In this document: one piece after another, positions 15,118 through 37,600 of the stretch
Position numbering within the stretch: the stretch's first letter is position 1
Layout of the letters: every line of letters begins with the position of its first letter
Position numbers and translations under genes: made by a program
From: Lineolata rhizophorae
Lineage: Eukaryota; Ascomycota; Dothideomycetes; Lineolatales; Lineolataceae
Direction: 5' to 3'
Assembly: GCA_010093515.1 (NCBI GenBank)
Contig: MU001687.1
Span: forward strand, 444,070 to 508,069
DNA length: 64,000 nt
The notes under the pieces: model-generated
Database searches by the model: none
Told to the model about the DNA's origin: nothing
What the model saw: the letters and a program-made list of their open reading frames with translations, nothing else

Positions 15118-16598
<1,481 letters not shown>

Positions 16599-19150
16599 AT
16601 GCTGTCCAGTTCAAAGCAGACCACCGCCTCGAGCGCCCAACAACAGCGGCAACGGCTCCACCGCCGTCAAAACTCAACGCCCGCACTCGAGGCGGGGCAT
16701 CTGCCCCCTCTTCCGGCCATCGTGCAGAGGCAGAGGTCCCACCGGCGAGGAAGGAGCATGGATCAGAAGCCAACCTACCTCAACGCCGGGCCTCCCTCTC
16801 CCACAGGCACCATTAATACAGCAAACGGAAAGACGGTAAGTATTACTAACACAGGACACAACGATTTACAGCATCCGATGCAGATAGCGCAGCAGCACGG
16901 TTTGCACCAGCCGGGCCCCCAATTAAGCCCTGGTTTCCCCTTTAGGGACCAGGGGTTTTCTTTTCCACCGAGGTCTCCTCCGATACTCGAAGAGACCAGC
17001 GACAATCGGCTGCCTAGCCCGCAGCGTCAGCCTTCGGAGCTAGACATCAAGAATCTAGAGCAGCACGTCAAGGCGCTGTACGGCGAGAATCACACGGTGG
17101 TGGTGAACATCCTGCCGAGTCCTACTCCAAGTCCCCGCAAGCCGAATCAGACACGGCCACTGGCAAGCGTGGATCATGCGCCAATGCCACCTCCTCAGTT
17201 TAGTTCGGATCTTGGATCCGACCTCCAACTAGATCCCCTCATTATGTCTCCACAGTCCCGAAATTTCCGATTCCAGACCCCAGAACACGAGTTCAAGTAC
17301 GACTCATATGAGTCGCCCGACCAACTCTCCCCGCAGCAGTCACCAACCTATTCACCCATGCAAACGCCTTGCAAGTCGGCTTTTAGCGACAAGGGGTTTA
17401 ACGGACCAAAGTTGACCTTCCCAGAGGGGTCCGCAGTCCTACCAACCACCCAAGCAATGAACAGTCTGACTCTCTCGTCGCCCATCTCGCCGACATTTGA
17501 CAGTCCGGATATTACGATGCAGTCCAACCCAGGTATGGATCCCATGACGCCGGAGGTCGAGATCCCACCCGACGTTCAGGCCCAAATCGAAGCCCTCGTC
17601 AGCGAACCAGATCCGACCACTAGTCAGCGCCGCTGCCTATTCCCCGGCTGCACCAAAGACCCGTTCAACCGTAAGGAAAATGCCCTCTCCCACGTCCAGG
17701 GCCACCTCAAGTGGCGCCCGTACGTCTGCAATGTCTGCAACAAGGACTTCGTGCGCCCGCACGACCTCAAGCGCCATGTTAAGATCCACTCCGACCACAA
17801 GCCGCACGTGTGCCCGTGTGGTCTGGCGTTCACGCGTGCGGACGCGCTAAGCAGGCATCGCTCGCGCGCCGTCTGCGTCGGCAGCTACCCCGGCGCGGTA
17901 CGCAGTCAGAACAAGCGCGGCCGCCCCAAGAAGCGGCCAGGCATAGAGTCCCGTGTCGAAAAAGCCAACAAAACCCGTCGTGCTATTGCGTCGAAGGGAG
18001 ACCAATCGTCTACCTCAGGCTATTCTCCCGTGTCGTCGGGCCCAGCGTCGCCCGGAGCGGAGGACTGTTCGCAACAGTCATCGTCGCCAGCGTCCAAGAA
18101 TGCCCAGCTCCATTCCCAGGCCGGCAGATTCGCGCCCGTGGCAGACACGGCACAATTCGCGTCAGCGGAGCAGCCAACGTTCATGACGTCCGCCGACCTG
18201 ACCCGCTCCGAATCGCAGTTCTCACAGTTATCCCACTACTCGCAATATTCGAATTACTCGTCGCAGCCACAGCAACAGCAGCAGCAGCAGGCTTCGCAGG
18301 AGGCCGACAGGGCCGAGGAAGCGAAGTGGAAGGTTCAGCTCCAGATGTGGGATTCGCAGGGGTCGGCGGGATTCTCGCCAGAGACGTTCATGACGACCAG
18401 CAGCAATTTCCACGCCGCATTGCAGCCAGATATAGCCGGCAGCCCGTCGGACGAGATATTCTCGTAAGTGCTATTTCGCCATTTTGACACCGTCCCATCA
18501 AGCATACAGAGTCTTCGCACCTAACGCCTCTACGTAGCCTCGACGAGCTCCCCTCCTTCACAACAGCCCACGCCGTCAACCTCTCCTCCGACACCTCCAC
18601 GCCCGGCCTCACCCGCACGTCCAGCTCCGCCGGCCACGACATCGACGCCGGCGCCCTCGCCACACTCGCCAACAAGCACACCCCGGCCGGCACAGGCGGC
18701 GCGGCGCCCGCAAAGGACTACACGCAGACGCCGCCGTCGTCGCCGCCGGTCCACTTCGCCACCGTCGACCCGACCTCCATGACCAAGTCCCCCAGCACAG
18801 CCGCCACCGCGGCGTGCTCGTCCGCCAAGCCGTCGCCGCCCGCGCCGTCATCCTCCTCTGAGACCGCGACACAGCCCCAGCCCCAACCCCAGCAGTCTCA
18901 GGCCCAAGCCCAGACGAAGCCCCCCGCCGCGCCGACGACGCCGCCCGTGTCGTCGCCTGAGACGGACGACGAGTTCTTGGACAACCTGCTGGATTGCTCC
19001 GGGGGCGCGGGCGCGCAGCACTGGCCGGATACGGTGGTCGACGTGGCGGATTTTGGGGACGAGTTTGCCGGGTTCGAGGAAGGGGAGTCGGAAGCGGCAT
19101 TTTGGTTGGGGGAGTCGACGGGGGAGGGCATGGTGGCGGGTGGGTTCTGA
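16599..19150 (+). CDS. Swi5/Ace2-like C2H2 zinc-finger transcription factor
   Basis: Probable cell-cycle or morphogenesis regulator related to yeast Swi5/Ace2. Two exons (16599-18463, 18538-19150) give 825 aa; the intron has a GTAAGT donor and CTACGTAG acceptor. Three fingers lie at about residues 346-425: CLFPGCTKDPFNRKEN (first), YVCNVCNKDFVRPHDLKRH (second) and HVCPCGLAFTRADALSRHRS (third). The compact CPCG of the third finger is the Swi5/Ace2 hallmark. A basic segment (NKRGRPKKRPG) follows, a likely nuclear signal. The N-terminal 340 residues and the C-terminus are Ser/Pro/Gln-rich with many SP/TP sites, fitting CDK/phosphatase control (inference). The start at 16599 is the first ATG; 16758 is an alternative. 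A 36-nt in-frame intron-like segment lies at 16836-16871. Confidence 0.87.
16836..16871 (+). other. Intron-like 36-nt in-frame segment
   Basis: Begins with a consensus donor GTAAGTAT, contains TACTAAC and ends TTTACAG, yet is only 36 nt, divisible by three and free of stops. It is probably too short to splice, though later AGs (16883, 16892) would give in-frame introns of 48 and 57 nt. Confidence 0.5.
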
Positions 19151-20400
19151 GCGGGTCCCACCAAGCCAGTTTAGTCGGGGGTCGCGGAGCTCTGCCTGGG
19201 AGGACTTGATAGAGGGTATCCAGTCCTTTTGACTCTTCGAGGAAGGGGCATGAGGCGTTTGAGAGGGCGTTTGAGCCCTTTTTTTTCTGTGTGCTTTCGG
19301 GCGCGCTTTCGTGCCCCGGGTTGTAACGACAAGAATGACTCGTAACGACGGCAACGACGGAACCCACAAAAACAACACTTGGGAGGGGATAGGGCAGGGA
19401 GTTTTCGTTTTCTAGGATTGGGTTCTTTCTCGGGACACATGCATGGGCGAGGGGAAACGTTGGAAACGAGCTCGCCACGCCGCGCATGATCACTTCATCC
19501 TTTTTGCCGTTCGCCGCCTTGTCTTATCACCACCAGGTTCAGTACTTTGAGGTGGAGCGCCATCTGCTCCCCTGCCGCTCCTTTTGGGAAGGCCCTAGCA
19601 AGGCTTTTCATGCAATTTTTTCCTTTTGTGTCACTCGTTCTGTTGCGTGTTGTTGGATACATGCGAGGACTGGATAGTCACGGCGGGAAGCGAGGAGGAT
19701 TTGTACGATCCGCGACCGTTGACTTTTAGTTTTGAGAAGAGAGGCATAGGCGTGGGTGAGAAGGAAATTTAGCGTGCTACTTTTTGATCGCTTCGACTGT
19801 CTCTACCGCCTGCGTAGCCGGCGCTGATGCTGAGCTAGAATTGGGGCGAACGTTGTGTAGATAATGCACCGGCAGAAATATAAGTCTGTTGGGTAATTTT
19901 GGACTGCTTTACTGAATGCACGACAGAGCAAGAAATGGAAGACATTGAGCGAGGCTAAAGTTCATAACATAGCTTTAAAATCGCTAGGATCACATATCGA
20001 CTTGTGAGTGTTCTTTTGAGAATCAGATAAAAGATAGGAAGGAACAAAATGTTTGCATTTAATAACATCGGATCCAATTACACAAGTGTGAAGTTCATTC
20101 ATATGTTTCAGTCTACGAAATGCAAAGCCCTTTTGCTGACCGTGCCCATTTCTCTCAAGATGTGATTATAACCTTGCATCGTCGATGGCATTGTGTGCAA
20201 AGTAAATGGGAATCTCCTAAGAAAACTGGCAAGAATCTTCCAACCAGTTATCATGCCATGTCCTTGACTTCCTCACAGTGGTAGGGACATGTGGAGCGTA
20301 GGCATATTTTGGGAGAACGAGGTCGAGCTTTCGGCCCTCCCGTGCTGCTCGCTTGACTCGCAGGGGCCCGCTTCGGTCTACTCGACTACTGAAATTCGAA
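19151..20400. other. Spacer downstream of the Swi5-like gene
   Basis: About 1.25 kb holding the likely long 3' untranslated region. Frames on the minus strand to 19493 are shadows of the GC-rich coding exon. No gene recognised. Confidence 0.55.
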
Positions 20401-20489
20401 CTGTGCGGTATTTAAGTATTATATAACGTTGTACATAGTAATAGCAGCGTAGTAGAAGTAGCGCAGTAGCGAAGAGGCAGCACAGCAAT

Positions 20490-20604
20490 CTAGAGGCTGT
20501 ATGACGCATAGCGACAGCAGCGTAGTTCGTTCTGGGTCGCTACGCTCCGCTTGCAATCGTAGAAGTTACTACGCTGCTATCGCCGTATACAATACAGCCT
20601 CTAG
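20490..20604. repeat. Imperfect inverted repeat, 36-bp arms
   Basis: The left arm (20490-20525) begins CTAGAGGCTGTAT and the right arm (20569-20604) ends ATACAGCCTCTAG. The arms pair over about 36 bp with several mismatches around a 43-bp loop. It could form a hairpin or be the remnant of a small non-autonomous (MITE-like) element. It lies in DNA rich in GTAGCG/GCAGCG short motifs, unlike the neighbouring spacers. Confidence 0.7.
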
Positions 20605-20639
20605 ATAGCTAGGCTGCCTTTTCGGCCTAGGATAGCATA

Positions 20640-20790
20640 GGCAGCATAACATTGAGATAAGCATGCAAAGCATGGGAGCATACAAAGCACTAGAGGAGCA
20701 TACAACCCACGGGAGCAAATAGCACAGGAACAAGGAGCAGAAGTATGAGGGGTAGAGCTATAAGGAGCATGCAGCAGAAGAGCACAATAT
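20640..20790. repeat. GGAGCA-rich degenerate short repeats
   Basis: The hexamer GGAGCA recurs at least six times, twice as GGAGCATACAA, in irregularly spaced copies. It looks like a decayed simple or tandem repeat. No coding signal. Confidence 0.55.
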
Positions 20791-20887
20791 CACCGGAGGG
20801 CCTCCTTACATAGATGTTGCTCCCATAGCTGAAAAGTCTATACTTTTCCCAGTTCGTACACACAAAATAAAAGATCTACCTATGCGT

Positions 20888-20980
20888 AGAGACAGCGCAA
20901 AGCTTGGTCTCTTAACATAGAGACGGCGTGAAGCATGGTGTCTTAGCATAGAAGCGGCGTGAAGCACTGTATCTACATGT
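20888..20980. repeat. Tandem repeat, 3 x 31 bp
   Basis: Three head-to-tail 31-bp units (20888-20918, 20919-20949, 20950-20980), each starting AGA(G)A, with a shared GGCGTGAAGCA-type core. Units 1 and 2 are most alike; the third has diverged at its end. It lies about 870 bp upstream of the NLR start. Confidence 0.7.
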
Positions 20981-21846
20981 AGCTGTGCGTAAAGAAGCGG
21001 CCAATCAGCTGATTTCACCCTAGTTTCGTCCCATTGTCCATGGGTACGTGTGGCTGGATCTTATTAGGTATTGAGATGAGAGAAGTATGATTGTCTTGTC
21101 GCTCGATTTGCGCACTGAGCTCTACGATGTCGCGACTAAAACTCAAAACGATGTCTCTGTGAGAATATTAGGTGGCCTATTTGGGCCTAGTTTGCCAGCC
21201 CCTGACGGGGACTCTACAAGTGTATTTATGCAGCTCCAATGTCAATGGACTTGGCCTACCTATTCTAGATTTCCACCGGAATCTGACAGTCTCTACCCCC
21301 ATTTTATCGCTGCTCTAAACCGAAATTGAGCAATTTAGAGCATGCGAAACTCCATATAATGTTTCTAACCCCTCGTCGCCAATGCACGTGGTGTAGGAGG
21401 CAAATCCGCCACACAGCTTGGTACCTCTCGTCGGACAATTTCGGTAATACGCAACCACGTACGTGGTATTATCGTAACATCTTGACTGTAAGTTGAGTTT
21501 AGTCAGGCTGTTTTCATACATGTAGCCCAATTTCTAACCTCTCCTGGGTGATGGAACAGGCTGTGCATGCAGAAAAGAGACCAGGCTAGTTAAAAGTTTA
21601 GGCAGCCAACCCCGCGCGCCCGAGCGAAGCCCATCGCAACCGGCCTGCTCTTAGCCTGCCTCGCTTTTCAGATTTAATATTTCGGTATGATCGGAGTTCT
21701 TCTCGCTTTCGTGTATACTGGTTAACATCGGTCGTTACGCAAGGTGTTGGCCAGCACACCAGCTGCGGCCCCGCCTAACCTGCCGCCTTGAGCTCGGCCA
21801 ACGCAATTTCTACCGCCTATTGTCTCGTGAAGCTCCGCAAGAAAGA
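20981..21846. promoter_or_regulatory. Upstream region of the NLR gene
   Basis: About 870 bp between the tandem repeat and the NLR start. No coding signal. The promoter presumably lies here. The stretch 21070-21330 has a different texture from the rest, but I could not assign it to any element. Confidence 0.45.
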
Positions 21847-24800
21847 ATGCGCCTTTTGCAACGCAGCGACGCAGGCGAGTTCGAATTCGCTGAAAACTTA
21901 ACCAGCGACGACACAATCCCTCCCTATGCGATACTTTCGCACACATGGAAACGGGATACCGAGGTCATCTTCGAAGACATGAAAAATCACACCGGCAAGA
22001 ATAAGCCTGGCTATGAGAAGATTCGATTCTGTGGAGAACAAGCTAGACGAGATGGCTTAGAATACTTTTGGATTGACACCTGCTGTATCAACAAGGAAAG
22101 CTACGCCGAACTCTCGCAGGCTATCAACTCCATGTTTCGCTGGTACCGCAACGCGACCCGATGCTATGTCTATTTATCGGATGTGTCTAGCCCTCTCTCC
22201 GACACCAACGATGAGTTCAACCCACGGCCATGGGAAGCGGATTTCTGGAAGAGCAAATGGTTCACCCGGGGTTGGACACTCCAAGAGCTTCTTGCCCCCC
22301 GTTCTGTCGAATTCTTCTCCCGGGAACACAAGCGACTTGGTGACAAAAGTTCTTTAGAGCAACAAATTCATGAGATAACGGGTGTTCCTAAATCAGCGCT
22401 TCAAGGAGCCCCTTTATCTCAGTTCAGCGTCAATGAGCGATTATCGTGGATAGAACGTCGCCAGACTACAGTAGAAGAAGATAAAGCGTACTCATTACTA
22501 GGCATTTTTGACGTCTACATGCCCCTTATTTATAGAGAAGGGACTGCGAGTGCATTCAAACGGCTCCGGGAGGAGATCGAGAAGCTGGAAAAATGTCTTC
22601 AAGACTTGCGCCTTACCGATCCTCGTGATGACAAGAAGCGTATAGAGGACACTAAGGGAGGCTTACTGGAGGACTCGTACCGCTGGGTCCTTGAAAACTC
22701 CGACTTCCAACGATGGAGCAGCGCCCAGCAGAGCCAGAGCCAACTGCTATGGATCAAAGGCGATCCCGGCAAGGGTAAGACGATGCTGCTCTGCGGCATT
22801 ATTAATGAGCTGAACAAGTCAATGGCTAAGACGGCTCTTCTATCCTACTTTTTCTGCCAGGCTGCCGACTCGCGAATTAACAACGCCATAGCCGTGCTGC
22901 GAGGTTTGATATATTTGCTTGTCGACCAACAGCCATCACTGATCTCGCATATACGCAAGAAGTACGATCGCGCCGGCAAAGCCCTCTTCGAGGACACGAA
23001 TACCTGGGTTGTCTTATGCGAGATCTTCACCAACATCCTGCATGATCCCAGCTTGAGCAACACCTACTTGATCATTGACGCGCTCGATGAATGCGTAGCA
23101 GACTTGCCGAACCTGCTAGATTTTATCGGTCAGAAGTCGTCCGTATCATCTCATGTCAAATGGATTGTCTCAAGCCGCAATGACTTTAATATTGAGTGGA
23201 GACTACGGCTCGACGGTTCCGGGACAAGGCTTAGTCTCGAGCTTGAAGAAAATGCAAAGCAAGTGGCCTGTGCCGTTAATACATACATCAACCATTGCCT
23301 ATCAGAACTGTCGGAAATTCAGCATAACACGGAACTCCGAGATTTAGTCCGGGAGAAAATGCTGTCCAAAGCCAATGGCACGTTTCTCTGGGTATCCCTC
23401 GTCATCAAGGAGCTCAAGGAGGTGATGAGCTGGGACGTACTACAAGTCCTTGAGGAAGTCCCTACAGAGTTGAAAGGCATGTATCATCGAATGATGAAAC
23501 AAATCAAACTGTTGCGGCGCAACTATCCAGAGCTTTGCCGACAAGTTCTCTCGACCGTCATCGTTGCGTACCGTCCGCTGCACTTACAGGAACTCCGTGT
23601 ACTTTCCGGTTTGCCTACACAAGTCCAGAACGCAAACCAGTCGATCGCAGCCATTGTGAAGATGTGTGGGTCATTCCTCACAGTGCAAGATGACAATGTC
23701 TACATTATCCACCAGTCAGCCAAAGACTATCTATCTGAGGAAGCAAGCCATGACATCTTTCCTTGCGGTGTTGGTGAAGCTCATCATTCCATCTTCTCGA
23801 GATCGCTCCAGGTCATGTCCAGAACATTACGAAGAGACATTTACGGCTTACATGCGTTAGGGTACCCTATAGAACGAGTTGAACACCCGGAGCCGGACCC
23901 GTTAGCGGCGTCACGCTATTCGTGTCTCTCCTGGGTCGATCACCTCTGTAACTGGAATTCTAACTGTTGTGCAAAACACGGGGTCGACCTACAGGATGGG
24001 GGCGCTGTTGAGGACTTCATGAGAAGGAAATATCTTTACTGGCTAGAGGCTCTTAGCCTTTGCGGAAGCACGTCGGACGGGGTAGGATCAATGGCGAAAC
24101 TCGAGACTTTACTCCAGGTACTCCTTAGATCAGTGATTCTCTTTCCAAGTACATACTAAGATAACCTAGGGGCGAACAGACGCATCTGCATTATTCGGGC
24201 TAGTTCGAGATGCGTACCGATTTATCATGTATCACAAGCAAGCGGTAGAGAACTGTCCTCTACAGGCATATGCGTCTGCGCTCATATTTAGTCCGGCCCA
24301 CAGCCTGATAAGAGGACTTTTCAAGAACGAAGAGTTGAAAACGATCGCGATACAGCCGCCTATAGGAGATGAATGGAGCGCCTGCCTGCAGACGCTCGAG
24401 GGCCATTACGGTTCGGTTAGGTCGATAGCCTTCTCACACGACTCAACCCAGCTCGCGTCAGCATCAGACGACAAGACGGTCAAGATCTGGGACACAAGGA
24501 CCGGTACCTACCTGCAAACACTCAAGGGCCATAGCAATTGGGTTACGTCGGTAGCTTTCTCACCCGACTCTACCCAGCTCGCGTCGGCATCAGACGATAA
24601 AACAATTAAGATCTGGGATACGAGGAGCGGCGCCTGCCTACAGACACTTGAGGGCCATCGCGATTGGGTTAAATCTATAGCTTACTCACACGACTCGACC
24701 CGACTTGCGTCAGCATCAACCGATAGAACAGTCAAGATCTGGGATACGAGGAGTAGTACCTGCTTACAGACACTCGAGGGCTATAGCGGTTTCGTTTGGT

Positions 24801-26356
24801 CGGTAGCCTTCTCAGGCGACTCGACCAGGCTCGCATCGGCATTAGCTAACACCATGGTCAAGATCTGGGATACGAGGAGTGGTACTTGCTTGCAGACGCT
24901 CGAGGGCCATAGTAGTTGGGTTATATCGGTAGCCTACTCACACGACTCGACTAGGCTTGCATCGGCATCAGGTGATAGGACGATTAAGATCTGGGATACA
25001 AAGAGCGGTGCCTGCCTGCAAACGCTCGAGGGCCATCGCGACTTGGTTAAGTCGGTAGCCTTCTCACATAACTCGACACGGCTCGCGTCAGCATCAGAAG
25101 ATACGACGGCAAAGATCTGGGATACGAGGAGCGGCGCCTGCCTACAGACGCTCGAGGGCCATCGCAACTGGGTTTGGTCGGTAGCCTTCTCACACGACTC
25201 GACCCGGCTCGCGTCAGCATCAGAAGATAAGACGGTAAAGATCTGGGATATAACGGGCGACGGTGCCTGCCTGCAGACGCCCGAGGGCCATTACGATTCG
25301 GTTAGATCGGTAGCCTTCTCATACGACTCGACCCGGCTCGCCTCAGCATCAGCCGATAGAACGATTAAGATCTGGGATACGGGGGGTACCTGCCTGCAGA
25401 CGCTCGAGGGCCATCGCGACTGGGTTAAATCTATAGCCTTCTCATACGACTCGACCCAGCTTGCATCAGCATCAGACGATAAGACGGTAAAGATCTGGGA
25501 TATAACAGGCGACGGCACCTGCCTGCAGACGCTAAAGGGCCATCGCCGTTCGATTAGGTCAATAGCCTTCTCAGGTAACTCCACCCAGCTCGCATCAGCA
25601 TCAGATAAGACGGTCAGGATCTGGCATACGAGAGGTGGTATCTGCCTGCAAACTCTCGAGGGCCATCGCGACTTGGTTAGCTCGGTAGCCTTCTCACATA
25701 ACTCGACACGGCTCGCGTCAGCATCAGAAGATAAGACGGTAAAGATCTGGGATATAACGGGCGATGGTGCCTGCCTACAGACGCTCGAGGGCCATAGCCG
25801 TAGGGTTATATCGGTGGCCTTCTCAGGCGACTCGACCTGGCTCGCGTCAGCATCCGGTGATAGGACGGTGAAGATCTGGGATGTAACGAGTGACGGCGCC
25901 TGCCTACAGACACTCGAGGGCCATCGCGATTTGGTTAAGTCGGTAGCCTTCTCACATGACTCGGCCCGGCTCGCGTCGGCATCAGACGACAAGACGGTGA
26001 AGATCTGGGATACGAGGAGTGGTGCCTGCCTGCAGACACTCGATATTGGCAAGAGACTCTCTGAAATATCGTTCGATGCCACCGGCTCATGTCTTCATAC
26101 TGAAATCGGTACCATTGCTATAAATGCGTCATCAGCTTCATATACGACGCCGAATGTAACGAAGCCCCAAGACCTACGATTTCAAGGCGCGGGTGTAAGT
26201 TCGGATGGAGTGTGGATAACATATAATTCGGAGAACCTTGTGTGGCTACCCTCAGAATATCGGCCATTCCGTTCGGCCGTGTCCGGCAAGACGATAGGTA
26301 TTGGAGTTAACTCTGGAAAGATATGGATGTGCCGCTTCAACATCGAGAATAGCTAA
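21847..26356 (+). CDS. HET-NACHT-WD40 NLR (HNWD family, het-e/het-d/het-r type)
   Basis: Fungal NLR-type receptor of the family that controls heterokaryon incompatibility in Podospora. Two exons (21847-24117, 24170-26356) give about 1485 aa. The 52-nt intron (GTACTC donor, TACTAAG branch, CCTAG acceptor) restores GRTDASALFGLVRDAYRF, the usual linker, so the gene is complete. HET domain at about residues 1-230: MRLLQRS, YAILSHTW, YFWIDTCCINK, FTRGWTLQELLAP. NACHT at about 290-470: Walker A GDPGKGKT, Walker B LIIDALDE. Helical region to about 760, then 13 WD40 repeats and a short conserved tail (WITYNSENLVWLPSEYRPF). The ATG at 21847 gives the MRLLQ start typical of the family; an ATG at 21820 would add nine residues. 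The gene is unlike its housekeeping neighbours and is flanked by repeats and element relics. Confidence 0.93.
24391..26046 (+). repeat. Array of 13 near-identical WD40 repeats
   Basis: Thirteen coding units of about 120-129 bp (40-43 codons) form the C-terminal sensor of the NLR. The frame is constant (VxSVAFSxDSTxLASASxDxTxKIWD...CLQTLEGH) and long DNA stretches are the same between units. Changes concentrate at the three residues after GH (YGS, SNW, RDW, SGF, SSW, RDL, RNW, YDS, RRS, SRR), the residue after V/I, the residue after AFS, and the residues around SASxD. That pattern is known for HNWD genes, where repeats are shuffled by recombination and ligand-facing positions diversify. Confidence 0.93.
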
Positions 26357-27208
26357 CTCCAGAAATTGGACGATTCCCTGTGTACGTAAAGAATACACCT
26401 TACCTCGAGCGACTCGTGCGTGCCGGAGCCGTCATAAATAAGAATCCGTAGTTTCTGACTCGTCCGTGGGCTAGTTTGTAGATCAAACACATATTTGACC
26501 CAGTCAAAGCTGATCTTGGAGTCGGTGAATCCAGATTGGGAGCGTGCAAAACGCCATCTCGGGGTGGGGTGTGTGGTCCATGCGCTTCGATTGGTTGCGC
26601 CTGGCCGGATAATCAGTGGATAGGGAGACATGCTGTCTGCAGGAATGCACTCCGTCGCAGTCACCATTGTCCGCTTAATACCCGCGCCTCTATAAGTTCG
26701 CAGGTCGTGCTTACCTACTAGCACCTTGAGGGAGCTGAGTATGCTTAACATAACTCCCGTTTGGTTTATATTATAGACATTCTCCGGCAGAATGACTAGG
26801 TCGTGTAGTTCCTTTGCCATTATCTCAAACGACGGTGTGGATGTTATTATTGCGCCGATTGCAATATGGTAACCTTGACCTTTTTTACTTTGAGCTTAGG
26901 ATGGCGTTTGTAGAAGCCCTGAGGCCAGTTCTCACCCGGAGGGCGATCCTTTCGTCGGTTGTGGAGGCCTAAAAGACGGAGGAGCGCTAACGCGCAATGA
27001 TGAGCGCTAGCGAACGAGGATATTTAATCGGAATAGGGAAGCCATTATTAGATATTCGTAATAAGTAGTCAACAAAGGCTTTCTCTGCGGAAGGGTTGAG
27101 GAGCAGATAAAGGGGGCGCCGACTCTTAATCCCTTTAGCCGTGGACGCTTTGCTTCGTGTCCCGCAGCTCATACCATGAGCAACCATCCGACATCGTTGA
27201 CGTCTCAA
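26353..27208 (-). mobile_element. Degenerate pogo/Tc1-mariner DNA transposon (transposase relic)
   Basis: Remains of a DDE transposase of the fungal pogo type, on the minus strand. The N-terminal part (27208-26987) reads NPSAEKAFVDYLLRISNNGF, then RSLALIIAR, the CENP-B/HTH-type DNA-binding region. The catalytic part (26820-26353) reads PENVYNINQTGVMLS, where the family has Y-N-M-D-E-T-G, so the first catalytic Asp is replaced. It then reads KRTMVTATECI, RSAWTTHPTPRW, SKISFDWVKYVFD and LIYDGSGTHESLEV, the last carrying the second catalytic Asp. Stops and frame changes lie between the two blocks, and the C-terminal end is missing. No terminal inverted repeats could be recognised, so the true ends are unknown. 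An old, immobile copy. Confidence 0.85.
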
Positions 27209-27968
27209 CGAACTGTAGATTGGGCTCGTTCGACCGAATCACAATAAACGCACGGCACTGTCGCGAAGTGAAAGGTATTGGAAGAGGAGGGTCGAGAAAC
27301 GGAAAGATGCGGCGCAGTGAGATTAATCGAAGAGTAGATGCGTACTGGAACAGTTGTGAATGGTCAGCCATCCCAAAGTTTCCAATAATCATTACCATGA
27401 TATATTAACCCATGCACCATTCTGTCTGCGAAGTCTTATTACCTCAAAGTATTTCGCTAGATCACCTATTAGGCGATGATATCGTCTCCTCTTTTAGCTA
27501 CGTCTCATCGTAGGCGTCTTGCCGAACCAACAGTTGGTTGGAATCTTGCAGATCGGAGGAAATCACAGTGGCAGGACTCACAGAAACATAGAAACTTAGA
27601 GATCGTAGGAAGTCAGACCCGGAACGACCCAGCCCTCGTATAAGCATGCGATGATTACGCACTATGATTCCCGTAACGCGGACAAGCGCGTATCTTTCCG
27701 TTTACCGTATCTTTCGGTACAGTATATGCAGAGGTCTAGAAGTGAGCACGACTTTTGAGTATATTCCAAGGGTCCGGACATCGGCACAAGGTCTTAGTCA
27801 AACCTAGAGACAGAAGCTTGTCGAAGGAACAGCGTTTCCAGAATTCATTCGAACACCCTAGCATTCCCACATCGGTTAGCCCCAAAACTGAATGTGACAT
27901 ACTACCTTGTGGCGATTACAGGGCGTAGAGCAATGGTCACCGATGAGGTTGACAAATTTGATCACAGG
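27209..27968. other. Spacer between two element relics
   Basis: About 760 bp with no recognisable gene. It may contain eroded terminal parts of either relic. Confidence 0.45.
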
Positions 27969-30518
27969 CTAGTAGAACACATCGTGCTTGCGAACCGTAT
28001 GATCTAGGAAGTGCTGGTCGCGCTCGATCCAATCTGAGCAGCCGGGATGCTTGCATTTGGTCCACCGATTGAAGACTCTTTTCTCCAGGTGCAACCTGAC
28101 ATGTTTCTGGACCGTATAATTTCTCACGAATAGACGGATCCGTTCCTCATGTGACAAGTTCTCGCGGCCAATGCAAACGAGGCAGACTGGGCAGAAGAAT
28201 TTCGTCGGATACGCGTGCTGTACGGTTTTGGCACCTGCAATCGTTGGCGGCGGCAAATGATCGTCTTTTGCCTAGTCCTCTCCCTCTAGTGGCTAGAACT
28301 AGTGGAAGATTTCAGCTTCGGAGTGGATACACTAGATTTTTTCCGCGGTTCGACGTTACCCGATTTACTGCGCTTTGGCTTTGTCCGATGGAGTTAGCTC
28401 TTGGTATATTGAACGGCTTTCCTGTCGCTAGTAGAGTCGACTAAGCGTTCGGACAAACTCGCTCGACGACACGCCTAAAAGCCTTACAATGGCCGCTTGT
28501 TCCTGAAGTTCGTATTGCGTGTCTGGCCGTGTTAGAGTCTCGTGTAACGCTGTTCCATCTAGCTGTCTGCCAATCTCCTCTCATCGATCGTGTCATGGAA
28601 ATCTCAGGCTGCTTTATCCAGCCGCTTTTTACGCAAGGTAATAGCTGTACCTTAGATCTTTCGATCGTACTTTACATACCGATCGTGCCGACGAGTCCCC
28701 TTAGCTGCATTGAGGGGACGGTATCCACGAGAGCAGATCTTCTCCTTACACCGCCCCTGTTTCCGGCAAAGCTTCACGAGGCCGGGGTTATCGTTGACCT
28801 TCTGTTTTTGCTCGTCGGTCAGTTCTACCGTTGCTCGCCTGTCTCGCGACAGACATATGCGTGCGACCGATTAAATCAGGGCGTCCTGCGGTAACGATAC
28901 GAAAAATACTAATTGGAAGTCGCGTTCGATCAGGTCGGGCACGTAGAAATGTTTATACGTGCCACCGCGGTGGCCCACGGTCTGGTTGCGATCTTCTGGA
29001 GTAAAGGCAGATTCGGGCAGTTAGAAGAATACTATTTAATGAAGAAGAGCGAAGGAGGCATAGATAGATGACTTACTGTTGATATTTCTGCCAGAAGCCT
29101 GCCGGGTCTGGTATAATTCGAGAGAGATACTTCTAGTAGAAACACACCTTGCTGTCAGAGACCCGTAAGCCCTCGGGAATCCTCTCGAGGTCTCGGAAGA
29201 CTGGCAGGCCCTCTGACTCCCCTCAAGCGAAGTATATCCTGGTCGGCGGGTATTTCGAGGTAAAATATCTCTTCTACAGAAGCGAGATCGCGTCGGAACG
29301 CGCTATAGGCAAGAGCTATAGCCAGGAGGTGCGAGAACGATGCAGAAGGGCGGAGTTCTCTCGAGATGGAAGATGAACTTCCTAAATTTAGGGTTAACGG
29401 ACTCGATCTTAGTAGTTCAGGATAATAGGTACCTACCGTCTACCTGTTCCTCCAGCATTCTTGATACGCGCGAGGTTTACTTTCACGGCGGTTGTCGTAC
29501 GCTTAGGATCCGTCGCGTCGCGAACCCTTATAATCGAGATATGCTCCTAGGCGAGAGCTTTGTTAGTACTCTTTATCCTGCCGCTTTCAACGAGAACCCC
29601 TAGCCGAGCGGCAGTAGTACTACTGAGTAGAAAGAGCAGGGAATCTGGACTCGGCTTAGGCCATATTGTGCCTTTGTATCATCTGCCCGGTATCATCTGC
29701 CCGGTATGCGTGCAGGATTGTGTAGAGATCTTGGATGTGCATAGCAAAATTTTCCTCCGAAGTGATGAGCCCATGGATAGGCGTCAGGTAGGGATCCACT
29801 GGTACGCGTTTGCAATTCCGGAAGGCGCAGGAATGCTTAGGAATCACTTACGTAGTACATCTCTAGTGTCGAGCTCGGTACCATTGCCCATCCCGTGGCC
29901 ACTCCAGTCTATGTACCCGCAGCTCAGACGCTTCCAATAGCTCTTTATCGTGCTCTCCCTCTTAATGTGAAACTTCTTAACCCGCTATTCCGGGTGCGCC
30001 TTGATGGTGTGCTGTTCATATGTGGTTAGCGTTTCAGTGACATCGGTCTCGATTTTCCGGCAGTATCTGCGCGTCTACTCATGAGCGATAGCTTGGACGC
30101 CATCAACTTACGATTGGCAAATCTGCATTTCTAATTTACAAGCCCCTATGACCAAGGGCTTCGCCTCGATTCTGCACGCCCTTGGCCCCCATGGTCCTCG
30201 ATTCTCTCTGGCAGGAGCTCGCCCTCCGACTCCTGACTCTCCGTTTAGCTCGGTTTCTGCATCGTCATCGGAATCCAAGTACGACTCGGAGGCTGGCCCA
30301 GCGCTAGGACTAATATCGGCGTCCCGGCCTGAGTCGGAGGCTGAAGCCGAGTCTATTCGCCGGGACATGGTCACGGGGGAACTATAGACGAGTTCACGAT
30401 CGTGACTGCGACACGACTTCCATGTACCTCTGTCGGAATAGTGCCGCGCTCGGTGCCGCGCCCTTGTGCTAGGACGACGATATCGGGGCGCAGTCGTCCC
30501 CCTCAACCTCCGAGTCAA
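27969..30518 (-). pseudogene. Decayed DUF3435-type (FluG-like / tyrosine-recombinase superfamily) gene
   Basis: A broken gene on the minus strand with several disruptions. Family blocks appear in the expected order. An acidic serine-rich N-terminus lies at 30518-30108. Near 29960-29890 is a segment ending in SYWKRL. NFAMHIQDLYTILHAY lies within 29847-29656. Near 29625-29545 reads LGVLVESGRIKSTNKALA. Near 29000-28900 reads TPEDRNQTVGHRGGTY, where the family's GH-x-G and nearby Tyr belong to the recombinase active-site region. A cysteine/histidine finger tail lies at 28256-27969 (CPVCLVC, HVRLHLEKRV, CKHPGCSDWI). This order matches multi-copy fungal DUF3435 proteins, a family that includes Starship captain recombinases. 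Whether this copy was a captain or a FluG-like relative cannot be told here. Confidence 0.72.
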
Positions 30519-32807
30519 CAGTATTTTGATATGATGGCAAAGCGCGAGGCGGTCGGACGGCTGAACTAGAGTGGAAGCGGAGACGCAACGTCAAGCTGGA
30601 AGGCGGAAATAGATCATTAGAGGGGCTCGTTCTGGCGCTGCAGTAGGGCACTTGAATGCCCCAAGGCTCGCATCTTGCTTGCTGGGTGACACGCCCGGCG
30701 AGGGTGCTAGGTTCGAGTGGTAGGTCAGTGGCGTAACGGGAGAGAACCGGAGAGGTGGAGAAAGGAAGGACGGACGGAGGTGGACAGACACAGGAGCATA
30801 GAGGCGGGTGGCCGCCTGCAATAGCTGTGAATCTGCTTGAGCGCCGACATGGCTAGCTAATGCTCCGCCGGTGAAAATGCACCCAAGTTCTGCTGCTCAA
30901 ACTAACACATTTTGGCGGCTTCTCCACCCACTCCTACATTATACTAGCTATTTCATTCTGTGTTAAAAGTAGTTAGGTAAGCTCCACCTATTCCGGCGGG
31001 GAGCTTGGTGAGTGTCAAAAGACTTCTGACTTGGCACTGTACACACTTCAGCAATCCTCCACGCACCTTACCTCCTATGCACACATCACTTACGACCTAC
31101 CCGGGCGCTCTCACTCTCAATATTACTATCTATTACGTATTACCACTATCTAAAGTCATCCGACCATTGGCCCCAGCACCCCTCGAGGCCATCCCTATTC
31201 AGCACAGCCTTCCAGCGCGTCAATCCATCCAGCCAGCCAGCGCCTCCACCACCTCACGCTCACCAACTAGACGGGCGACGCACATCGGGCTATGGTTCGA
31301 AGAGCAAGAATGAAAAAAAGACAGGGGACGCAAGCAAGCGGTCCCGCAGCCGTTTCACCACCTCATCGCGTCCAGACACCTGACCGACTGGTCCATCTAC
31401 CCACTTAACGGCCGTCAAACGAGCGCAGCCCATCCCATCATCCAGAACCCCACCCTCCAGCACGCCTTGCGGCCTCGATCTCTTCCTCCTGCGCCACACG
31501 TCCGCCCCAGTCTAACAGAAAACTCCGCGGCCCACGTTCGTCGTCGTAAGCACAACCGCGCCACACCCAGCACAGCCGCGTCCCGCCCTACGGGACACAA
31601 CGCACAGACGCCCTCAGTCTTCCATGCAACTCCCTCAAAAGCGAACGTAGTGGTACAGTAAATCGGGCGACACCCCGCCGCTGGACGCAGCGTAATGGTA
31701 CAAGAATGGCTCTCTTCGTCCAAAACGAAAGAAAAAAAAGGCCAAAACAACAAAACAAAAGTCAATAGCCACAAAAATCTTCTTCAGCACAGCGAACGTC
31801 TTTTTGAAAAAAGCAGACAAATAATCTGGCCAAGAAAAGCGAGCGAACAACTGGCCGGGGTATCAAGAAGGGTATGAAAAAGAAACAGAAACAAGTTGTC
31901 TTCTGGCTCTTTTACAGCAAAAAAAAAGGCGCCAAAAACCGATCAATAAAGCGATTGTAAGAAGATGAAACTTTTCCCTCACCAAAAACCCTAAGGGAGG
32001 AAAAATTGAAAAGGGCAAACCCCAGGAAGAAGTAAAAGCAATAAGGTTGGGGAAAGCCCGCTCGGACGCGAGTGCAATGTAAAAATAATAATGATAAACC
32101 GTTCAGGGATGGCCTGGATGCGGGGTGGGAGCTAAAGTTCGGAGAAAGTTGAACAAAAGGTAAAAAGGTACGCATCTAACCCCCATGATAGACGCCTCCG
32201 TAACCCGGATTACTATCTTCAGGCTGATATGTGTCTTGGTGTCAAAGCGGCGGTACTGTACCGTCTAGGGAGATAGAAAAACGAGTAAAACGTCGACCAC
32301 GTGCCCGAGAACCCATCTAGGCACTCTATAGGTGAGCGGCGCGGAGAAAGATGAATGTCGAAAAAGATGTGCGGACTCGAAGGTTGTGTTCTCTGCTAGT
32401 TCAGAGGCCGAGGATAGAATAGAGGGTCACTAGCCTAGCTCCGGTAGCAGGCTAACCGCAGGAGAAGCCCAAAAAAGTGTCCCCTAAATCCCATGATATA
32501 AAAACGGGGCGGGACGAACGAAAATAACAAGGTGAACAAGCGCTCTGATCGCTCCGGCTCAAAAAAAGGTTTAAAACCAAATCAAAAAAAAAAACTCCGT
32601 CCTATGCATGCAGAATATTAAGCTGTGGTCATGAGCGGGAACATCCGTGACGCTTGCGAGCGGGCAACAAAAAAGGGCGATTCGAAACGGGCGGGCCAGA
32701 GGAAGCAAAGACGCGCGCGCAGGGAGGTTAAGCACCGACGCCAACCACGGGGTGCTCAGCGCAGGCGGCACAAGCCCCCAGAAAAAGCCAACGTCGCTAA
32801 TGCCGGC
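30519..32807. other. Gene-poor spacer right of the accessory island
   Basis: 2.3 kb with no supported gene. 31.65-32.6 kb is rich in A-runs on the plus strand (T-runs on the minus strand), consistent with the long 3' region of AUR1. A right boundary of the island may lie near 30.5-31.0 kb, but no terminal repeat was found. Confidence 0.5.
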
Positions 32808-34697
32808 CTACCGCCCGAACTCATGATCGCTCGCGCTCGCCAGCGTATCTCCTTCCCACAGACTCGACCCCGTCTCGTCCGTCGGGCTCTTGGCACCGAA
32901 GCTCGGGCTCCTGCCGGCCTCGGTGCGGCCGCCACCGGTGACGCTGCTGGCGGCCGATGACGAGGTCGAGAACGACGACGAGGAGCCGATGGTCCATTCG
33001 TCGGCCGAGTCAGCGCCGCCGCCGCCGTTGCGGAACATCTCGTACAGGTCTGTGGCGACGGCGAGCGAAGCGTCGGTGTCGGCCTCCTCGCCCACCTCGA
33101 CGTAGTCGTAGTCCCACCGGTACATCTTGTCAAGCTGGACGCGGGGGAGGAATTTGGCTTTAGAGACGAAGAAGAAGCATGCGGCGACTGCGTGGGTGGG
33201 ATTGAAACATCAGTCTAATGGGGGCTAATTGGGGGGTTTCGGGAAGGGAGCCTGGGGACCGAAATATTCTGAGAAGGGGGGAAAGGGAACGTACGCAACC
33301 CGCCGGCCATCAGGTCGACCGCGTAATGGTGCGACAGGTACATGGTGGCCCACCACATCCACAGCGTGTAGGCGATGAAGACGGGCCTCAGCTTCGGGAA
33401 GACGTGGCTCATGAAGAGGCACTCGAGCGTCGAGTTAGCCGCGTGCAGCGACGGAAAAGCGCCGAATACCATGGGCGACGCCGTGAAGCCCGACGTGTAC
33501 ATGTCGATGCCGAGAAGCTTGTCGATAGCCGCCAGCCCGGCTGGCGACCCGGGCATCGAGTAGTTGGCCGGCGCCAACCCGTAGGTGTTCTCGTACCACG
33601 GCGGCGAGCACGGGAACATGAGCTGGATCGTCACGCCCACGGCGTTCATGTAGCCGAAGGCGCGCGCGAAGGCGGGCGTCGTACCCGGCGGACCGAAGAA
33701 GAAGAGGACGAGGGAGACGACGAAGGGGGCGCCGAAGTGGCAGAGGCCGTACGGCAGCCAGGCCAGCACGTCCAGCACGACGTGCTTGTGCGCCGACAGG
33801 ATGTTGCTAAGATTGGCGCCGTACAGAATGTTCTCGAGGGCGGGGAGCACGCGCACCCAGATCGGTGGCCGGTATTCTCCGGATATGAACCTATGGAATT
33901 TTGCCATGCGACGTTAGAGAATGTGTTGCGCATTTTGCGGGAAGCAAAAAAAAAAAATTTGTGACGCAATCGGAACACTCGGCAAAGGAATGCAATTTGC
34001 AACAATTGAGGCGCGCGGACATGCAAGACAGGCTGATTTTTTTTTTTGGGATGCGGAGTGTCGCCCCGGTTGTTGTCTCAGAAGTCCGAAGGGGTAGCGG
34101 GGTGCATATACTGTGCAGTTGTGGTGGGGAGAAACGGCGTTTCATGATATGCGGCGCCGAACAGGTCAGGGTCAGACCAGGCGACCAGCGCCAGTCGATT
34201 CTATTCGGGGGGGCTAAAGGGGGAGGAAAGTAGAGGAGGAGGCGAGCAACGCGCGACACTTACTGGCACGAGTAAAAGAGGACGAGCCAGGAGGCGATTG
34301 GCAGGAAAGGGAGGAAGAATTGGCGAGTGACGGGCATGACGAGGGCGGCTATAAGCATTGTCGCGACGAACGTCTTGAACAAGGGCCCGGGCGTCTCGAT
34401 GATGCTCAGGCAGAATATGCCCAAGATGGCGATGAAGAGGTACTGGCCGTCGTAGAAGGACCACTCGTGGGCGCGCAGGCTGGCGATGGTGTCGGCGGGC
34501 GACCACGACGTCGCCAGGGCCGAGATGTGCGAGGCGGGCGCCTGGCGGCTGCGTATCTTGGAGCGCGTGGCCCGCACCTTGCGCCGGATGCGGTGCGGCA
34601 CCAGCGGCTGCCACGAGAGCGGCAGCTTGGCCGCTCGCGCGAGGAGCCGCCGCGGGCCGCCGCCGCCTTGGAACGGCAGGTACGACGAGTGCTTCAT
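32808..34697 (-). CDS. AUR1: Inositol phosphorylceramide synthase catalytic subunit (AUR1)
   Basis: Golgi membrane enzyme transferring phosphoinositol from phosphatidylinositol to ceramide, essential for fungal sphingolipids and the target of aureobasidin A. Three exons (34697-34264, 33890-33295, 33187-32808) give 469 aa. Introns are 373 and 107 nt; the first is long for this window. The splices restore FYSCQFISGEYRP and AGGLLAACFFF. Several hydrophobic membrane segments are visible, e.g. YLFIAILGIFCLSII. PAP2-type catalytic motifs are present: ANYSMPGSPAGLAAID, VFGAFPSLHAANSTLE (His) and LSHHYAVDL (His and Asp). The C-terminal about 100 residues are acidic and serine-rich, with no membrane segment. 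A protein partner (Kei1 in yeast) would be encoded elsewhere. Confidence 0.96.
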
Positions 34698-37600
34698 TGT
34701 AGCGGCGGCCGGCGGACACGGGTCGCGCGGCGCGGGCGGAGCGAGAAAAAAGCGTGCGCCGTGGTCGCCGTGGTTGTGGTGGTAGTTGCGGTGGTGAAGG
34801 AGGAGGTGTGGTGATCAGCGAACAACGCGGGCGAGAGCTCTCGGCGGGTGGTGTGCGGCGGTGCAGGCAGCCACCCGGGGGGGGGGGGGGGGATCAAAGC
34901 GGTCGGTCGGTGCGCGCGCTGCTTGCGGAGGGGAGGGCGGGCGGCGACTCTCGTACGGCACAGGGCCGGGGGCGAGTCTCGATCGCGGCGCGAGGAGGCG
35001 GATTGCGGACGGCGTGGAGAGAGAGGAGAAAATGCGGGAAGACGAGGAAGAAGGAAGAAGGGAAAGCGGAGGCACGAGGACGGTTGCTCGTGCGGTGACA
35101 GCTCTGGCCGCGAGCGGATGCCCCGGGAGCGCTTGCGAGCCTTGGCCAACGACAGCGCGCGGCGCGGGCTCGCAGCGCCGGCGCGCGCCCGTGCAATCTC
35201 GCCCTCGCCGCCAATGGACGCACCCCCGGCCGGGCGGGTTGCTTACTCGACAATCCGACCAGTCGCCGCGCTCCGCCGCCTGCCGGCCGACTCTTCGCTG
35301 CTCGCGAGCTCTGCCGCTTTCGTGCCGCCGGTGGGCGATCCGTGGCTTGTCGTCTGAGCCACTGCCGTACTCGGCTACTGACGAGCCCACCGGGCGACCC
35401 TTCGCCGTCTCTCCGGTGAGAGGCTCCCTCTCCGCCTGGGCGGCTGCACGTCTAGATAGCACGGCACGACGGAGAGCTTTCTGCTTCGCTCCGAGCCGGT
35501 CCCGTTCCGCGGTGATGTCAAGGGCCCGCCCGGCGGGCGCCGGCAGAGCCTGGCTCCTCGACGTCAGGCCGAGCCAACGCCGCCGCCCGCCCGTGCTAGG
35601 GCGATAATATCCGCCGCACCACGGCCGGCGTCGCGCACATGGCCCCATCCAATATGCACCTCCCGCCCACACGTGCTCTGCAAAATACGGCAGTACGCTT
35701 TTCGAACACATCCCGGCTGACAAACTCTCACGCGACCACCCAGGCGCCCCGGCAAGCTCTCTTGGTCTTCGGTCCCTTTTCTTGGCGCGCCGGATCGCCG
35801 CGGTTCCGAAATGCACACCGTCGCGACGCAACTTCGTCTCCTGGTGCAGAAGGCCGACTGACCGGGACGCAGATGCGGAAATTGGACGGTGAGATTCTTG
35901 GATGGCAGCGCGACCTACGCGACTCGAGAGCCGGTCAAGTTCAGATTGCGCCCGCTCGGTTGGTCCCTGAAGATCCCTCGCCAGCCTATTGCCGGTGCGG
36001 ATCGGGCTCCCGCGAGCCCGACTTGCCGGCCGCCAGCCCGCGACCGGCCGGTCGTGGAGCCCTGGGCCTGGTGTGCTACCCTTGTACTGTAAAAAGTAAA
36101 ATTCATTCACTTTTTTTCCGAACTGACGGGAGGACGAAGTCGCTCTCGGTTCCTTTGCTGGTCCGTTGGGTCTATGCGTCGCACCAAGCAACTACTAAGC
36201 AAACCCCGATAATCTCCGTTCTTTTAGGAGCGACCAGGATAATAATCTCCGAGAAGCGAAAAGAGCCTCCCGGCCAACGGCCTGAGGAATAAGTAAATCT
36301 CATCTACATATAGTCCGTCCGAAGAAAAAGGAGGAGGAAAAAAAGTCGAAAAGGACTCGGATCCGGGTAGAGGACCTAGAGGTCCCCTTCTCTCATCTCA
36401 CTAGCACCTCTCCGGCGTCGTGCGGCCACCTCTCGCTCCCGTAATCCAGGATTGCGGAAATGAACCTCGAGCTCTCGTGGCCCTAAACTCCGCCAAGCGC
36501 GCGCTCTCTCTCGCCTCCCTGAGTGTCTGCCCCCATTTTCTTGAAAGATTTGCGCTCTCCCACCCCCCATATGTTAAACGCGTGAAACGGGCGTAGAAAC
36601 GGGCGCTAGGTACGTACATACAAGCTGCGGCATTGTGCGCGCCCCCGTATGTACCAGCAACCTAAGAGCGCACCGCGTACTACGTACCTACTACGTACAA
36701 AACGTGGTGGACGCCGACCGCCGCGATCGTTCGTTCGTTCGTTCGGTTTGCAATTGAACCCTGAGACTCCAATGCGCGGTGGCACGTGGCAACTGCCGGA
36801 GGTCGCTGCATACCTGCGTAGTACATAGGTACGAGGCGCGGAAGCCCGGGGGTGCGACAGGGCGCAAATTGAAATTTAGAGTCACGTAGTGGAAGAATGC
36901 TTAGAGCGGTTTTTAGGTGAAGTTACTAGGTGTGACGCTATTTGGATTGTCTATCTGTATGTACCCATTTTGAAGTGTTGTGGGGTGTTGCACCTTTCGC
37001 GGTGACATTGGGGGATCCAGCACTGAAGACCGTGCAGCGCATCACAAGCATTGGATTCTGCCCTGGGCTACAACCAGCACAGTAATAAACAATTCCGTCC
37101 GCGGACTTGCAAAACGTGAGGTCTGAGCGCAAAATATACTGCATTTTCTCCATCCCGACGCGAGCGTCGCGGCTGCTAGCAGTCGACATCCAACGCTGTT
37201 CCTCAGGTCATGCGTAACAGCACTTGACTACCGCATGGGGCAACTTTATTGTAAAATCGCACGTCTCACTGAGTGGGTGCCTATTGAAACCTGCTCTCTC
37301 CTTAAAACCCCCTTCGAACTGGCCAATCAAAATATAGAGCAAGTTTCGCGTATTTCGGCGTCGCATTCCGCTCTTCTCTCAGAGGCGTCTTTTTTGGGCC
37401 GCCGGGCGCGCGATTCAGCGGTAAACCACGCAATTTTTCAGTCTGGGGCCACCAGCCGTTATTCCGTACCAAACCGCTTCAAGTTGGCGAGCCGTCTACA
37501 ATCTCCAAGTTGCCCCGACAGAAAAACTCTGTCACGCCGTTGGTGCCGCTAGCTAGGTAGTGACTAAAGGCCCAGCATTGACCCACGACCCGATCTCAAC

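Follow-up and report, generated by a model that had tools for sequence, protein, structure and literature searches.

The window is a stretch of 64,000 nucleotides from contig MU001687.1 of Lineolata rhizophorae, and all positions below refer to it. At this locus an intact NLR gene lies among several old dead transposon pieces, with ordinary genes on both sides. The left flank is formed by a C2H2 zinc-finger transcription factor gene (16518–19150, plus strand), the Swi5-like gene of the original prediction, with a zf-C2H2 match of 35.6 bits on 16518–18464; we infer that the ORFs at 16518–18467 and 18488–19150 belong to this one gene. On the right lies a PAP2-family gene (33218–33913, minus strand; PAP2_3, 84.2 bits), of which the ORF at 32808–33209 may be the last exon. 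Its predicted identity as AUR1 holds here to the level of the family, the specific name being that of the prediction. The surrounding genes had been described as housekeeping genes, and Pfam profiles indeed assign them to ordinary cellular families (COQ9, LCM methyltransferase, PAP2 and listerin).

At most about 14 kb separates the two flanking ORFs (19150–33215). Ten further ORFs of 59–149 aa between 26990 and 30896 gave no Pfam match at E 0.01; small ORFs of 60–124 aa also occur to the left of the NLR and to the right of 30896. No tRNA genes (ARAGORN) or RNA families were found in the window.

The HNWD-type NLR gene and its WD40 array

The NLR gene (21847–26356, plus strand) encodes a product of 1485 aa, open from the ATG at 21847 to the stop at 26356, through two coding segments (21847–24117 and 24170–26356) separated by a single GT-AG intron of 52 nt (24118–24169). 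Profile searches placed a HET domain, a NACHT/NPHP3_N domain and 13 WD40 repeats within this one open gene, which has the HNWD architecture (HET-NACHT-WD40) and is complete, as had been predicted. Paralogous sequence was seen at two other places in the genome: C3 carries NACHT-WD sequence and C11 carries WD repeats. A comparison of the NACHT region with the closest paralogue (C3) over 506 codons gave 57.7% amino acid identity, with dN 0.34 and dS 1.86, values that indicate purifying selection with dS near saturation. The N-terminus of the C3 paralogue is apparently different from that of the NLR described here. When this paralogue was taken together with about 1.5 kb on each side, it matched only 22591–26332 of the window, inside the NLR gene, and genome searches with both flanks of the NLR gave no match at the C3 locus. 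An origin of the whole island as a duplicated block was rejected, as C3 shares NLR sequence only, C36 part of the HET domain only and C39 the pogo piece only.

The 13 WD40 repeats form an array at 24381–26043 (plus strand) with a spacing of 123, 126 or 129 nt, and the most variable residues are found at repeat positions 9, 10, 11, 13, 19, 29 and 31. In Podospora, WD codons 7, 9, 25 and 27 are under strong positive selection and codons 8 and 26 are conserved, according to an extract of PMC1805685. With an offset of four, set by eye, the four selected codons align with positions 11, 13, 29 and 31 here, and the summed amino-acid-changing differences at these positions were reached by 25 of 66045 four-position sets. 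The codons equivalent to 7, 9, 25 and 27 are thus diversified in this array, in the sense of variability between repeats and not of selection. The ratio of nonsynonymous to synonymous differences was 0.70 at the seven most variable positions. Mean amino acid identity between the repeats is 75.3% over the 37-residue core and rises to 86.6% once the seven variable positions, a post hoc choice, are left out. The array, known here from one sequence, lies below the 85% or more by which high internal conservation is defined in an extract of PMC4986451, the Podospora anserina repeats being given there as about 85% identical. The repeats within the C3 paralogue are 68% identical, against 67% between the two genes, which lends weak support to concerted evolution of WD repeats in this genome.

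The resemblance to the HNWD/NWD genes of P. anserina (het-d, het-e, het-r) extends to the domain order, to the 13 similar repeats and to the presence of a NACHT-WD paralogue, with an apparently different N-terminus, elsewhere in the L. rhizophorae genome; the four codons strongly diversified in Podospora also fall on variable positions here. By analogy with that system, the NLR is very likely an intracellular self/non-self receptor. The WD40 propeller would be the part that binds a foreign protein or a partner, the NACHT domain would provide for oligomerisation, and the HET domain would set off cell death; recognition would shift as the similar WD repeats change or undergo unequal exchange with one another. 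The match between its variable WD positions and those under selection in Podospora makes this additional HNWD-type receptor a reasonable candidate for surveys of its alleles.

Spacer repeats and transposon relics

The region to the left of the NLR had been called a repeat-rich spacer, and a search of the genome with 19500–22100, in which 40 of 78 candidates were scored, did yield at least 55 matches, the self-match among them, mainly belonging to two dispersed families. Repeat B (20298–21076, strand not assigned), delimited by a genome self-search, contains an internal hairpin with arms at 20470–20533 and 20561–20624 and occurs in at least 14 other places in the genome. Repeat A (21158–21288, plus strand) is a solo-LTR-like insertion with TG...CA ends and a 7-bp terminal inverted repeat (one mismatch in the window copy), flanked at 21153–21157 and 21289–21293 by an exact 5-bp target duplication, GTCTC. 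In an alignment of 13 loci and the window copy, the 5-bp duplication is perfect in 8 of the 14 and carries one mismatch in three more, including L026, where the ends are shifted. Repeat A thus has the TG...CA ends and the 5-bp duplication of a solo LTR; a MITE that duplicates 5 bp would also fit, no internal region having been seen. The perfect target duplication of its own indicates that repeat A inserted by itself, and the window copy stands at 4.8% (K2P) from the consensus.

An association of the two spacer repeats with NLR or HET genes was considered and rejected, the enrichment being slight and post hoc. Counting this site, and with expected numbers that assume uniform placement over the genome, repeat A lies within 5 kb of an NLR in 1 of 25 rows (0.2 expected) and of a HET gene in 3 of 25 (0.52 expected); the corresponding figures for repeat B are 1 of 17 (0.14 expected) and 2 of 17 (0.36 expected). 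These rows, 24 and 16 respectively plus the window copy (C3 and C33 twice each for repeat B), are lower bounds from which weak, reverse-strand or overlapping ones, C45:17612 among them, had been dropped.

Immediately to the right of the NLR, a truncated transposase relic (26401–27100, minus strand), which we take to be of pogo type, confirms the predicted dead transposase through a DDE_1 match (26401–26676, 33.6 bits) and through similarity to another genomic copy over about 26401–27100. The DDE_1 domain is shared with pogo-type DNA transposons, from which this relic differs in its truncation and in that terminal repeats were not found. It is 68% identical to the nearest copy, and the copy on C39 adjoins an unrelated NLR. 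The similarity breaks off some 45 bp beyond the NLR stop codon, and the C-terminal half present in the other copy had no significant match in 19000–33000; placement of this half at the opposite side of the NLR was discarded (best tblastn E 0.34). The cut points to a breakpoint near the 3' edge of the NLR and would agree with a late arrival of this gene, as a segmental duplicate or recombinant of an NLR locus elsewhere, into older transposon debris; paralogous sequence does exist on C3 and C11. However, the cut can be explained equally well by a simple deletion within the pogo element, and the C3 paralogue, with 58% protein identity in the NACHT region and its apparently different N-terminus, gives no sign of recent copying of the NLR. 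We consider a late arrival improbable.

Further to the right lies the decayed DUF3435 gene of the tyrosine recombinase family (27972–29787 at least, minus strand). A PF11917 match at 28583–29005 (E 3.1e-18 genome-wide) contains three in-frame stops, and the core, read with X at the stops, scores 72.7 bits over 141 model positions. On the N-terminal side of this core, the DUF3435 copy on C17 matches the relic in gene order at 29689–29787 (score reached by 2 of 500 shuffles) and 29221–29328 (0 of 500), the two matches that stood out when two read-through frames of the relic were paired with DUF3435 pieces from three other loci in 12 comparisons. The C-terminal Cys/His part (27972–28271) matches the C27 copy (0 of 2000 shuffles) and, more weakly, pieces of C18 (11 and 31 of 2000). 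The pieces occupy three frames, in gene order and with stops, and some of the breaks could be introns. The many stops and frame changes, the lack of any Pfam match for the N-terminal half in its read-through frames and the lack of any hit at E 0.01 when single pieces were compared by tblastn with the other DUF3435 loci might suggest a chance resemblance with no gene behind it; the strength of the core match and the ordered matches on both sides of it make this extremely unlikely, and the predicted dead gene on the minus strand is borne out. No DNA-level match to the relic was seen elsewhere in the genome, and a solved-structure search with the best-kept DUF3435 piece (C27) returned a chance-level match only.

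Repeat-induced point mutation (RIP) as the cause of decay was set aside as weak at most, with a composite index of –0.25 to 0.24 in five 1-kb windows over 26–31 kb. Among these, the index is clearly positive only in 29001–30000 (product 1.16, substrate 0.92), the one kilobase in which RIP may have contributed. An index of 0.55 was obtained at 36001–37000, outside the interval.

Origin of the interval and the Starship question

The original prediction saw in these parts a candidate remnant of a Starship-like element, with the DUF3435 relic at the right end, as captain, pointing left toward the NLR. The parts, their order and the inward orientation of the relic are all present, and the relic does lie on the minus strand facing the NLR. 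Its start near 30.5 kb, in contrast, was placed in 29788–30590, a stretch backed by frame and position only, and no end of an element could be defined. The name 'FluG domain' goes back to an older annotation of DUF3435 proteins, and the FluG-like relatives from which a captain was to be distinguished are not known to form a separate group.

A small, deletion-worn Starship, in which the left part and the boundary have been eroded and the NLR survives as cargo, would account for the order and orientation, with a relic that covers most of a gene. NLRs are known aboard such elements: extracts of the published accounts describe three in Sanctuary, where some 350 bp separate the captain from the edge (PMC12506042), and one putative NLR with NACHT and WD40 in a Gaeumannomyces Starship (PMC12134995). 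The interval differs from these elements in its decayed recombinase and in having no recognisable edges. Starships carry direct repeats, and sometimes TIRs, at their edges. The short direct repeats predicted here did not emerge above chance, nor did inverted ones: between 19200–21800 and 30300–32800, the longest exact match was 11 bp in direct orientation, against a mean of 10.96 for 200 simulated pairs, and 12 bp in inverted orientation, within a run of T, against a null mean of 11.2. This comparison says little, since the direct repeats of Starships can be very short. A PAP2 probe of viral contigs, meant to reveal an empty site, gave no match. The room of about 14 kb falls narrowly short of the 15 kb minimum reported for Starships in an extract of PMC12134995, which a worn remnant need not reach. 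From the Starship accessory set (NLR, PLP, FRE and DUF3723), the NLR alone was recognised in the interval. Patatin had 13 matches in the genome and FAD_binding_8, chosen as the ferric-reductase (FRE) proxy, had 11, none of them in the interval; DUF3723 matched nowhere in the genome, so that this search had no positive control and does not establish its absence from the interval.

The neighbourhood of DUF3435 and NLR genes is not recurrent in this genome either. After merging gene pieces (29 NPHP3_N into 25 loci, one below the cut-off being kept; 67 HET into 65; 11 DUF3435 into 8), only one of the eight DUF3435 loci lies within 20 kb of an NLR (0.26 expected for NLRs, 0.67 for HET genes, under uniform placement over the genome). 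That one is the present site, which was chosen for this very feature, and with eight loci a real association could be missed. The flanking genes, being of ordinary cellular families, likewise speak against the worn element, which we regard as unlikely. The step from parts to element is not supported, and nothing was found to show that the pieces ever travelled together. Also unlikely would be a miniature Starship made of a captain and one allorecognition NLR, in which the recombinase decayed once the receptor had been delivered and the host retained the latter; if true, the island would preserve, as a fossil, the event in which a giant element captured an NLR. An NLR beside a DUF3435 relic without edges is, as a caution, not a Starship.

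The reading that we favour, and consider probable, is that of an intergenic site that collected transposons and holds one living HNWD-type NLR, the relics being separate arrivals. Mobile DNA would have gathered piece by piece: both repeats and the pogo relic would have inserted separately, and the DUF3435 gene would be an old solo copy of a tyrosine-recombinase gene, decayed where it lay. Separate arrivals are suggested by the target duplication of repeat A, by the differing divergences, by the sharing of the NLR alone with C3, by the C39 pogo copy next to an unrelated NLR, by flank repeats at the chance level and by the single DUF3435 locus in eight near an NLR. Repeat A looks much younger than the pogo piece (4.8% from its consensus, against 68% identity to the nearest copy), a contrast that covers these two pieces. 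An extract of PMC12134995 describes the solo condition as the usual one for DUF3435 genes, with captains scattered among the solo genes and indistinguishable from them in trees; the relic, as a single decayed copy outside any delimited element, resembles by description the solo genes of Pezizomycotina given there. In-frame stops occur in seven of the eight DUF3435 loci of this genome, and several of these relics stand apart from NLRs.

The accessory interval and its NLR gene

Accessory DNA of about 14 kb is bounded by an ORF end at 19150 and an ORF start at 33215. A family could be assigned (Pfam) to eight of the ten ORFs scanned around this interval, including, among others, 3-hydroxyacyl-CoA dehydrogenase, leucine carboxyl methyltransferase, COQ9 and a C2H2 factor on the left side, and one PAP2 (AUR1-like) and one listerin gene on the right; an extra ORF inside the right boundary (32808–33209) may be part of the PAP2 gene. 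The spacer repeats, intact NLR, pogo relic and DUF3435 relic described in the original prediction were all found here; the interval is most simply read as an intergenic site that accumulates transposons and holds one living NLR of the HNWD (HET-NACHT-WD40) type.

The NLR (21847–26356, plus strand) is intact. Its first exon matches HET (45.7 bits), NPHP3_N (122.8) and NACHT (57.0) and its second contains 13 WD40 repeats (all Pfam), joined by a 52-nt intron with GT-AG ends (24118–24169) into 1485 codons with no stop; this intron was picked by its length and a TACTAAG branch-like site, the frame being also open with seven other splice pairs. Judged against a paralogue on contig C3 (dN 0.34, dS 1.86), the NACHT part is under purifying selection. 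Short pieces resembling the HET start lie at extreme contig ends (C21:42-185, 54% identical; C12:1099170-1099322, 47%) and may represent subtelomeric copies or broken assembly.

Variation in the WD40 repeat array

The WD repeats are spaced by 123, 126 or 129 nt, and their mean identity (75%) falls short of the 85% given as the usual criterion in an excerpt of PMC4986451. The most variable residues occupy positions 9, 10, 11, 13, 19, 29 and 31 of the 37-residue core. In Podospora anserina, an excerpt of PMC1805685 reports strong positive selection on codons 7, 9, 25 and 27, flanking conserved codons 8 and 26; aligned by eye with an offset of four, these correspond to positions 11, 13, 29 and 31 here, around 12 and 30. 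The amino-acid-changing difference at these four positions is equalled or exceeded by only 25 of 66045 four-position sets. At the seven most variable positions, the nonsynonymous/synonymous difference ratio reaches 0.70, compared with 0.20 elsewhere; as the former is below 1 and these positions were picked post hoc, positive selection is not demonstrated.

Paralogous arrays are found at C3:281749-284662 (loci L064/L070) and C11:739818-740532 (L071). The C3 repeats show a within-gene identity of 68%, barely above the between-gene value of 67%, the window array being more uniform. They end in 'NSGE', an ending seen in none of the window's repeats.

Transposon remnants around the NLR

The spacer to the left of the NLR derives from transposons. 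Repeat A (21158–21288) begins with TG, ends with CA and is flanked by a perfect GTCTC duplication. It looks like a solo LTR, and no internal retrotransposon region was seen in its family; the 5-bp duplication is perfect in eight of 14 aligned copies and has one mismatch in three more. Insertions of this family, of about 149 bp with 5-bp target duplications, occur in the window and in at least 24 other places. Repeat B (about 20298–21076) contains a hairpin (20470–20624) with 64-nt arms, 77% complementary.

To the right, on the minus strand, the similarity searches confirm the pogo and DUF3435 relics. The pogo relic (DDE_1, 33.6 bits) is truncated, and its similarity breaks off some 45 bp away from the NLR's stop codon. 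At C39:167881-172547 (L010/L038/L061), its closest copy sits some 1.3 kb ahead of the NACHT domain belonging to a different NLR. That NLR has ankyrin-like repeats, as judged by eye, and resembles the HNWD gene nowhere at the DNA level; the proximity is probably coincidental.

The window corresponds to C18:444070-508069 of a genome whose gene content marks it as fungal. The profile search of this genome (30.97 Mb, 48 contigs) placed PF11917 (DUF3435) at 28583–29005 with three stops, scoring 72.7 bits with stops read as X. In 12 comparisons with pieces of other DUF3435 copies, two stretches of the relic matched the C17 copy, and 27972–28271 aligned with the C27 copy in its C-terminal Cys/His part; the relic thus spans at least 27972–29787, in order, and an N-terminal stretch may extend it to 30590. 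Its single pieces gave no tblastn match to other DUF3435 copies. In-frame stops interrupt the matched stretch in seven of the genome's eight DUF3435 loci, the match at the eighth (C9) covering only 126 model positions. Some of these stops could be intronic. The C27 locus has no open frame longer than 312 aa on either strand, against 619 aa printed by the profile search.

Bearing on a possible Starship origin

The original prediction took the NLR and the DUF3435 relic for a candidate remnant of a Starship-like element. The geometry of the two genes fits and stays suggestive, and NLRs are known in Starships (excerpts of PMC12506042; PMC12134995). However, flank-to-flank comparison gave no repeat above chance, and the available room is slightly below the reported size range (15 kb upward; PMC12134995). 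Other accessory genes were not found either: none of the 13 patatin or 11 FAD_binding_8 matches in the genome falls in the interval, DUF3723 has no match genome-wide in a search run without a positive control, and none of 10 further ORFs of the interval has a family. Moreover, the present locus is the only one of the eight DUF3435 loci near an NLR, the C3 paralogue lacks the flanks of the window NLR, and the insertions in the interval differ in divergence. Phylogenetic trees reportedly fail to set captains apart from solo DUF3435 genes (PMC12134995), and a lone captain lacking both cargo and repeats was set aside in another study (PMC11905480). A Starship remnant has a low probability here, and successive capture of transposons beside a living NLR is preferred. 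On contig C9, a DUF3435 match (109585–109947) and a FAD_binding_8 (ferric-reductase-type) match (122672–122968) lie 13 kb apart, one pair among few.
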